Assembly (NCBI RefSeq): GCF_000010305.1
Contig: NC_012489.1
Span: forward strand, 2,177,646-2,241,645
Direction: 5' to 3'
Origin: Gemmatimonas aurantiaca T-27
GTDB taxonomy: Bacteria; Gemmatimonadota; Gemmatimonadetes; Gemmatimonadales; Gemmatimonadaceae
Length of the DNA: 64,000 nt
Each line of letters opens with the position of its first letter. Position 1 is the first letter of the stretch. Below, one piece after another: positions 11,222-14,232 of the stretch. The position numbers were made by a program, and so were the translations under genes. The notes under the pieces were generated by a model that was not told the origin of the DNA, did no database searches, and saw only the letters and a list, made by a program, of their open reading frames with translations.

Positions 11222-12106
11222 TCAGCCCAGCGTACGTTCGGCAGCGCGAACCGTATTGCGCAGCAGCATCGCAATGGTCATCGGACCCACACCACCCGGT
11301 ACCGGCGTGATCTTGGACGCCACCTCGACCGCGCTCGCGAAGTGCACATCGCCACACAACCGACTGCCCTTGGCCTTCGTGGCATCGGGCACGCTGTTCA
11401 TGCCCACATCGATGACCACGGCGCCAGGCTTGATCATGTCACCGGTGATCATTTCGGCGCGACCGATTGCGGCAATGAGGATGTCGGCGCGACGGGTATG
11501 CGCCGCGAGGTCTTTCGTGCGGCTATGGCACACGGTCACGGTGGCATCACCACCGGCGCGCCCCTGCACGAGCAGCGCGGCCATCGGTTTGCCGACGATG
11601 TTGCTGCGACCGATGATCACCGCTTCCGCGCCACGGGTATCGACACCGCTGCGCACCAGCAACTCGATCACACCCGCGGGTGTGCACGATACGAAGCCAT
11701 CGGTATGACCAATCAGCAGCTTCCCGACGTTCTCCGGGTGAAAGCCGTCGACATCCTTGTCGGGACGGATATGCCGGATGACCGTATCGGGGTCGATGTG
11801 CTTGGGCAGCGGCATCTGCACCAGGATGCCATGCACGGCCGGATCGCCATTGAGGCGCTCCACCAACGCCAGCAACTCCTGCTGTGACGTGCTGGCCGGC
11901 AGGCGGATGGTGCCACCCTTCATGCCGGCTTCCACCGACGCTTTTTCCTTGGCGCCGACATACGTGGCGCTGGCCGCGTCGTCGCCCACCAGCACCACGG
12001 CGAGTCCGGGTACCACACCGCGCGCGGTCAGTGCAGCCACATCGCGGGCGATCTCGCCACGAATCGTCGCGGCGATGGCCTTTCCATCGATCAGTTCAGC
12101 GCGCAA
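11222..12106 (-). CDS. folD: Bifunctional methylene-THF dehydrogenase / cyclohydrolase FolD
   Basis: FolD interconverts 5,10-methylene-, methenyl- and 10-formyl-tetrahydrofolate, making NADPH and one-carbon units for purines and formyl-Met. The open frame extends upstream, but homology begins at [17 protein letters not shown], so I place the start at the TTG at 12106-12104, preceded by GGTGGA. This gives 294 residues, close to the usual ~290. Signatures seen are DVDGFHP with [28 protein letters not shown], and [15 protein letters not shown] at the C-terminus. With this start it overlaps the rny stop by 11 nt. An unusual start codon plus overlap suggests translational coupling. Confidence 0.95.
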
Positions 12107-13682
12107 AGTCCACCGCTCGGCTTTCTCGGATGACCACGACCTTGATCTGGCCGGGATACTGCAACTCGGATTCGATACGGCGCGCAATCTCTTCCGAGAG
12201 CGCCGCCATGCGCAGGTCGTCGACCTGCTCGGGGGTGACCACAACGCGCACTTCGCGGCCCGCCTGAATGGCAAACACGCGTTCCACGCCGCGATAGCTC
12301 GACGCAATGCGTTCGAGGCCTTCGAGACGCTTCACGTAGGTTTCGAATGCTTCGCGGCGCGCACCGGGACGTGAACCCGAAATGCCGTCGGCGGCCTGTA
12401 CGAGCACCGAGACTTCGCTCTCGTGTGGTACATCGTCATGATGGGCGGCGATGCAGTTCACCACCAGCGGGTTTTCGCCGTACTTGGTGGCCATCTCCAC
12501 GCCAAGCTGCACGTGGGTGCCCTCGTGTTCGTGCGTGAGCACCTTGCCGATGTCGTGCAACAGCGCACCACGCTTGGCGAGCGCCACGTCGAGCCCCAGC
12601 TCGGCGGCCATCATGCCGGCCAGCCAGGCCACTTCCTTGCTGTGCGCGAGGATATTCTGCCCGTAGCTGGTGCGCCACTTCATGCGGCCGATGAGCTTGA
12701 TCAGCTCGGGATGCAGACCGGTGATGCCGACTTCGTACGCGGCCTGTTCACCGGTCTCCACGATGGCCACCTCCACCTCACGGCGGGCCTTGGCCACCAC
12801 TTCTTCGATGCGTCCCGGATGGATGCGACCATCGCTCACCAGCTTTTCGAGTGCCAGGCGCGCCGTCTCACGACGCACCGGATCGAAGCAGGACACCACC
12901 ACCGTATCCGGCGTATCGTCGATGATGACATCGACACCGGTGGCCAGTTCGAAGGCGCGAATGTTGCGCCCCTCTCGGCCGATGATACGGCCCTTCATCT
13001 CATCGTTCGGCAGCGCCACGGCCGACACTGTCGTTTCGGCGGTGGTTTCGGCGGCGACACGCTGCACGGCGAGCGCCACGATTTTCCGGGCTTCACGGTC
13101 TGCATTGCGCTTGGCCGATTCCCGAATCTCTCGCAACCGGCTGGCGGCATCGGCCAGCGCTTCGTCTTCGAGGCGCCGAACCAGTTCGGCCTTGGCCTGA
13201 TCGGCACTCAGCCCGGCGATCTGTTCGAGACGGCGACGTTCGTCGGCAAAGAGGGTGTCGAGTTCCAGTGAACGCGCCGTGGCGGCGTCCTCCCGCTGGG
13301 TCAGCTCCTTGCCGCGCCGCTGCACCTCGAGCTCCCGTCCCTCGAGGCCTTCACGCACCCGATCCACCTGCGATTCGCGCTCCAGAATGCGCTTTTCTTC
13401 GCGCTCCACGTCGACCCGACGCTGACGGAACTCCTGCTCGTGCGTCTCCCGGAGCTGCAGCACCTCTTCCTTGCCGGAGACGATGGCACCCTTGCGAAGG
13501 GTGTCGGCTTCACGACGCGCCTCGTCGAGGATGCGTCCGGCCGTGTCTTCAGCGGTCGCCTTGGCACGCTGCTGTTCGCCGATCTCGGCCTGGCGGCCCG
13601 AGCGACGCCCAAACACAAAGGCGATCACGGCCGCGACCATACCCAGCGCGCCAGTCAGCGCGGCCAGGGAAAGTTCTCCCAT
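12096..13682 (-). CDS. rny: Ribonuclease Y
   Basis: Rny is a membrane-anchored endoribonuclease that initiates mRNA decay. The 528-residue protein shows all four parts. There is an N-terminal membrane segment ([20 protein letters not shown]), a long charged coiled coil (about 35-200) and a KH domain ([15 protein letters not shown] near 230). The HD hydrolase domain carries LLHDIGK and [10 protein letters not shown], followed by the conserved C-terminus ending near [12 protein letters not shown]. It lies downstream of a candidate structured RNA and zapA, and upstream of folD. Confidence 0.98.
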
Positions 13683-13763
13683 GGGGATCTATGCTCCAAC
13701 CACGCACGGGGCGCGGATCCAAAATCGTGGACAGACAGATCTATCGAAACGCCAGGAGACCAG

Positions 13764-13907
13764 CGGGACACGACAATGAGCCCCGACGGCACTTGGGCTG
13801 TGCTTGGGGGCTGCTGGCGCGTCCGCGGTCATCAACGGCTGATTTCAGAACGTACGAATCCACGGGGTGCACCGCAACGGTTCCCCGATGGGATTCGTCA
13901 TGTCCCG
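13764..13907 (-). ncRNA. Candidate structured RNA between zapA and rny (possible 6S RNA)
   Basis: On the minus strand, CGGGACATGAC (13907-13897) pairs with GTCGTGTCCCG (13774-13764), including one G-U, closing a ~144-nt region. Inside are two strong hairpins. The first is ACGAATCC/GGATTCGT (13891-13898 with 13854-13861) with nested CGGGG/CCCCG and ACCG/CGGT stems. The second is AGCCCC/GGGGCT (13807-13812 with 13779-13784) with a nested GCAC/GTGC stem. A competing UCCCG-AACA-CGGGA hairpin overlaps the 5' edge. Many bacteria keep 6S RNA beside zapA, which makes 6S the first guess. However, the multi-branch shape is not the classic rod with a central bubble, so identity is open. No good frame spans it. 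Confidence 0.45.
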
Positions 13908-13920
13908 TGTTCGGGAATCC

Positions 13921-14232
13921 CTACGCGGCGCCGACCTCATCGCCGCGCTTGGCGGGCGGCAGGAGCGGCCGAATGTCGGCAGCCAGTTGGCGGAGATCAC
14001 CGGTGAGGGATTCGCAGGCGTTCCGCTCCTTGAACAGCTCGTCCGTGATCTGGAGTGCCGCCAAAATGGCGGCCTTCTGGGTCTCCATCGTGGAAGACCC
14101 AGAGAGAATCGCCCGGATCGTGCGATCGACGTGTTCGGCCACGGCCTTGGTGTGTTCGGCCGAGGCTTCGGTCCGGAGCGAATAGTCATCACCCAGGATG
14201 CGCACCTTCACCAGCGCACGTTGGTCCATCAT
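13921..14232 (-). CDS. zapA: Cell division protein ZapA
   Basis: ZapA is a small cytoplasmic protein that bundles FtsZ filaments at mid-cell. The 103-residue product has the family pattern: an N-terminal strand VKVRILGDDYSLRTEAS, the helix AEHTKAVAEHVDRTIRAIL and a long C-terminal coiled coil from about 50 onward (TQKAAILAALQITDELF). It overlaps the coiled-coil gene upstream by 4 nt. A possible 6S-like RNA lies immediately downstream. Confidence 0.93.
   Translation of the reverse strand: MMDQRALVKVRILGDDYSLRTEASAEHTKAVAEHVDRTIRAILSGSSTMETQKAAILAALQITDELFKERNACESLTGDLRQLAADIRPLLPPAKRGDEVGAA

Follow-up and report, generated by a model that had tools for sequence, protein, structure and literature searches.

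A predicted promoter and structured 5' leader of the RNase Y gene rny in Gemmatimonas

Leaders of RNase genes and the zapA–rny gap

RNase Y is a key RNA-degrading enzyme. In Bacillus subtilis it represses its own synthesis by cutting the rny transcript within a 164-nt 5' UTR and the early ORF (PMC10303841); the strongest of these cuts fall in the 5'-most 50 nt of the leader, which are 76% A+U (PMC10303841). The enzyme favours a G upstream of the cut and RNA that is A/U-rich (PMC4608709), and cleavage depends on base pairing, or a hairpin, a few nucleotides downstream (PMC11321564); the RNase Y sites mapped in B. subtilis share no more than a weak consensus (PMC11780869). In Escherichia coli, rne, the gene for RNase E, is subject to feedback through its leader (PMC10989929). 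Structured leaders of RNase genes are, then, already known, and it is among them that the leader described below would belong.

The DNA that we analysed (the window) is a stretch of 64,000 nt from Gemmatimonas aurantiaca T-27, the genome of which is one contig of 4,636,964 bases. Within the window, zapA and rny are separated by a gap of 238 nt (13683–13920). The minus strand carries all the genes around this gap: pheS, pheT, an unnamed coiled-coil-like frame, zapA, rny, folD and xseA (the names pheS, folD and xseA were assigned from sequence). We compared the gap with its counterparts taken from genomes of the phylum and of the genus Gemmatimonas. Our preferred reading, which we regard as fairly probable, is that the gap holds the minus-strand promoter of rny followed by a structured 5' leader, the most likely role of which is to set the amount of RNase Y (Table 1).

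Such a leader would resemble the B. subtilis rny 5' UTR (PMC10303841) in several respects: it belongs to the same gene, its predicted length of ~160 nt compares with 164 nt, and both have structure at the ribosome site; in B. subtilis, RNase Y cuts this RNA and its own synthesis is thereby lowered. On the other hand, the B. subtilis leader is A/U-rich with a single stem-loop, whereas that of Gemmatimonas is G+C-rich with a long rod, and feedback in the latter is proposed by analogy. The E. coli rne 5' UTR, which is the Rfam family rne5, is also a structured leader of the gene for a main decay-initiating endonuclease, and is thought to read the level of that enzyme; however, the enzyme is a different one, the sequence is unrelated, and Rfam contains no match for the Gemmatimonas leader.

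Table 1. Features in and beside the zapA–rny gap (window positions)
Feature	Positions	Strand	Remarks
rny (RNase Y, 528 aa)	12096..13682	-	Pfam RNase_Y_N (E 2.6e-43), HD, KH_1
SD GGAG, then C and ATAGATC, upstream of rny ATG	13686..13697	-	near invariant in 24 leaders
Short hairpin directly 5' of the Shine-Dalgarno sequence (SD)	13700..13716	-	
Distal ATAGATC motif, flanked by rod and SD-side hairpin	13738..13744	-	in most Gemmatimonas leaders
Long rod hairpin, start of predicted rny 5' UTR	13751..13839	-	minus-strand fold, z -3.06
Closing-stem 3' arm	13764..13774	-	within the rod in the whole-gap fold
Predicted -10 box TACGTT	13849..13854	-	17 nt from -35 box; 96% mean identity
Predicted -35 box TTGCGG	13872..13877	-	identical in 24/24 loci
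Closing-stem 5' arm	13897..13907	-	upstream of predicted promoter
zapA (103 aa)	13921..14232	-	Pfam ZapA (E 4.8e-18)

Promoter, ribosome-site block and folds of the Gemmatimonas leader

The predicted promoter, TTGCGG-N17-TACGTT, stands 88–178 nt before the rny start in 24 loci (23 Gemmatimonas genomes and one from a neighbouring genus). The mean identity of its boxes is 100% and 96%, against 62% for the spacer, a degree of conservation that is slightly favoured by the search pattern, since this itself required TTG, a spacer of 17 bases and TA..[TA]T. The equivalent place in sister genera reads TTGC..N..TAnnTT. The predicted start of rny transcription is near 13842, and in Gemmatimonas the sequence that follows reads as a structured 5' UTR of ~160 nt; in the neighbour L009 the leader is only 88 nt. 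The Gemmatimonas leader precedes rny in the same orientation and stands behind its own promoter (predicted, and backed by conservation), as expected of an autoregulatory leader of an RNase gene.

The part of this leader that is best conserved is its last ~60 nt: in the 23 Gemmatimonas genomes and the one neighbour it is kept as CACGATC..CCCGCG..CGCGG-T-GGAG-YATAGATCCCC-ATG. The folding energy of the last 60 nt is ordinary (mean z −0.36). Across the phylum, a stem of five pairs or more, ending no more than 6 nt from the SD, is present at 57 of 67 rny loci, against 16.0 expected from shuffles; of the 15 further genes of the window whose SD was scored (rny left out), 4 have one. Furthermore, GGAG-N-TAGAT-N-ATG has three copies genome-wide, and the two besides that of rny have no convincing gene after them; on these grounds we rejected GGAG-TAGAT-ATG as a general start-site motif.

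The rod is usual among Gemmatimonas leaders and its sequence changes quickly. In a subgroup of eight genomes that can be aligned, 90.8% of cells are paired and four pairs are double-changed (shuffle mean 0.9). The folding of the rod is real in the window (z −3.06); across the set it is modest overall, with a mean z of −1.5 against −0.6 in an upstream control. Bearing in mind that the rods of the window species and its congeners are not alignable, and that the mean z is only −1.5, this element may be under weak constraint. Conservation of structure differs by element: within the genus it is strong for the SD-side hairpin and modest for the rod, and in sister genera there is strong covariation (see below).

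The first-pass annotation had described a branched RNA at 13764–13907, enclosed by an 11-bp stem. The letters quoted for it (UCCCG-AACA-CGGGA, and one G-U pair) match the minus strand, on which zapA and rny also lie. The potential to fold is genuine and belongs to this strand: 13750–13920 folds better than shuffles in both orientations, with a z of −3.19 for the minus strand and −2.43 for the plus strand. When 13764–13907 is folded alone (−66.6 kcal/mol), the closing stem does form: 13907–13897 (CGGGACATGAC) pairs with 13774–13764 (GTCGTGTCCCG) through 11 pairs, one of them G-U (C.A on the plus strand). It is absent from the minimum-energy fold of the whole gap (13683–13920; −100.0 kcal/mol), which contains instead the UCCCG-AACA-CGGGA hairpin, a second hairpin that covers the predicted promoter, and the rod at 13839–13751. 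The first of these had been flagged as a competitor of the closing stem, and it is one of the three elements that displace it here. We attach little weight to the closing stem, since an equally good one arises in 12 of 200 shuffled gaps, its 5' arm is located before the conserved promoter, and the sequence that contains this arm is missing from L003, L005, L006 and L007; the stem is rejected as a conserved element, given its missing arm in these congeners. The boundaries 13764–13907 were also misplaced: they straddle the promoter and leave out the final 60 nt ahead of rny, where conservation is highest.

A covarying rny leader RNA in sister genera and a proposed feedback

The other Gemmatimonadaceae genera have a different, strongly covarying RNA at the same place upstream of rny. 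Aligning the leaders of the whole family at once produced a consensus fold without meaning, and the sister core was therefore aligned on its own; it reads CGTAGGT..CAAGC..AGTTAGCCC..CCCG..GCGCCC-TTCGTC-GGCGC, and GCGCCCTTCGTCGGCGC is also in the core (CGTAGGT..AGTTAGCCC..GCGCCCTTCGTCGGCGC). Its 16-pair rod is 84.8% paired, and at most 44.9% paired when slid; there are 49 double-changed cells, against 15.7 ± 3.1 in shuffles, none of 500 being as high. These figures come from a structure that was partly derived from members of the alignment, a circumstance that gives it an advantage in the comparison with slid versions, though not in that with shuffles. The cells also include 18 G-U and 3 A-C, an imbalance that assigns the RNA to the strand of rny.

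At E 0.01, the model built from this RNA (R1) matches 87 of 148 family genomes and 21 of 35 genera, with a few of the matches weak and partial; in the 20 loci that were searched, no Rfam family was found at the gathering score. In all 27 loci with positions in both the R1 and the rny tables, which were compared by eye, the RNA is 44–100 nt upstream of rny and on the same strand. It remains next to rny even where 760–960 nt part it from zapA. Loci L010–L050 have the covarying leader RNA about 50–190 nt upstream of rny; in L013, L018, L042, L046 and L047, the gaps of 760–960 nt go with a distance from zapA to the leader that is several hundred nt longer, possibly through an inserted gene.

The Gemmatimonas leader and the R1 RNA have the same place, a promoter upstream and an SD-side hairpin downstream, but the core CGTAGGT..AGTTAGCCC..GCGCCCTTCGTCGGCGC is absent from Gemmatimonas. 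At E 0.01, R1 matches neither the rny leader of the window nor any of the listed Gemmatimonas genomes. Homology between the two RNAs was rejected on both counts.

We propose that transcription from near 13842 would give a ~160-nt leader in which the rod is followed by a single-stranded stretch with AUAGAUC, by the short hairpin that abuts the SD, and then by GGAGCAUAGAUCCCC-AUG. The rod would shield the 5' end and present nearby single-stranded G/AU sites to RNase Y (the slash marks the putative cut); AUAG/AUC sites beside hairpins would suit this enzyme as a substrate. RNase Y in excess would then cut its own leader, and less rny mRNA would result. By analogy with the known leaders, feedback control of RNase Y synthesis is the likeliest function, and the cut sites are putative. 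The argument from the motif is a soft one, since, of the two AUAGAUC copies in the window's predicted leader, the one closer to the start codon comes out as mostly paired in the computed ensemble, and the RNase Y consensus in the B. subtilis mapping is weak.

More tentatively, the rny leader of the Gemmatimonadaceae could be an undescribed class of cis-acting RNA that senses RNase Y activity: the core seen in sister genera (up to 21) would have been swapped in Gemmatimonas for a fast-changing rod, the promoter and the hairpin-SD-AUAGAUC block being kept, and RNase Y would cut between the ribosome site and the start codon. We view this as possible rather than probable. If the leader does repress in the manner of rne and B. 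subtilis rny, folded-leader feedback would be shared by unrelated decay-initiating RNases and would reach a third phylum; a compact RNA element would also be available for testing RNase feedback. The most useful by-products of this work are the sister-genus RNA family and the relocation of the Gemmatimonadaceae 6S RNA.

Alternative readings and the 6S RNA of the family

The gap could be an ordinary rny promoter and 5' UTR, without feedback, in which the hairpins reflect only G+C-rich sequence and mRNA stability. This would agree with the fast divergence of the rod sequence, with its modest folding scores and with the variation of the rny leader between genera; however, the frequency of the SD-side hairpin (57 of 67 loci, 16.0 expected) and the strong covariation in sister genera speak against it, and we consider it somewhat unlikely.

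Considerably less probable is a stand-alone small RNA that is released before rny and has its own function. The gap does have a predicted promoter of its own and a compact rod, and the core RNA of sister genera has clear limits, but the search for terminator-like sites on the minus strand gave just one, inside rny, and none in the stretch from the rod to rny, and the sister RNA keeps its 44–100 nt from rny even where zapA is 760–960 nt off.

A riboswitch or a leader-peptide attenuator of rny is a still poorer candidate, to which we assign very little probability. The leader is long and structured, and in the window species a 48-codon minus-strand frame ends at the SD; this frame is nonetheless broken in L006, L007, L106, L107, L109, L110, L114, L115 and L121, so that a leader peptide is rejected, in keeping with the original view that no coding frame fits the gap. 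The first-pass annotation had further suggested a riboswitch-like leader for rny. A leader for rny is supported: strand, conserved promoter, conserved hairpin and ribosome-site block, and the covarying sister RNA upstream of rny all point to it. The riboswitch-like character is unsupported, as Rfam has no match and the Gemmatimonas leaders share no conserved sequence core. Rfam riboswitch and leader families were rejected, there being no match at the gathering score; matches to mir-1181 and HTT-AS1 (E 0.93 and 2.7) are put down to chance.

A divergent 6S RNA in the gap, also suggested at the outset together with a search by the Rfam 6S covariance model, can be practically dismissed: we ran that search, and a second one with a family 6S model (R2), and neither has a match in the gap; moreover, the fold is one of separate hairpins, from which the closing stem disappears when the full gap is folded, not the 6S rod of closing stem, central bubble and terminal stem-loop, and the genome's predicted 6S lies elsewhere. 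What the gap shares with 6S RNA (RF00013) is its place next to zapA, a common trait of 6S and not a defining one. To expect 6S beside zapA was reasonable, since the order zapA-6S-rny does occur in the deep-branching family f9 (L092:1501–1680, 42.3 bits; L093:1501–1667, 30.0 bits; R2 also matches the 6S of L092, at 43.6 bits), but the expectation fails in the Gemmatimonadaceae, where the predicted 6S lies away from the zapA–rny gap. In a different family, f7, the gaps L086, L089 and L090 contain G+C-rich hairpins and then T runs, as if a separate sRNA and its terminator preceded rny; neither 6S model matches these three gaps.

The 6S candidate of the window genome came to light as a weak Rfam 6S match at 936,934, in a place that is syntenic in sister genera. 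Aligned, loci of this type give the textbook 6S fold, in which 17 pairs are double-changed, and R2 was built from this alignment. R2 matches 100 of 101 family genomes, almost invariably once per genome; its sole match in the window genome is at 936,937–937,088 (L001:1504–1655; 152.5 bits), ~1.2 Mb from the gap. The Rfam cut-off missed the Gemmatimonadaceae 6S in all 150 phylum genomes searched, and in the literature that we searched we found no paper on 6S in Gemmatimonas or Gemmatimonadetes. A terminator-like hairpin follows the predicted 6S in several loci, and two genomes (G195 and G200) have two 6S matches each, possibly a second copy.
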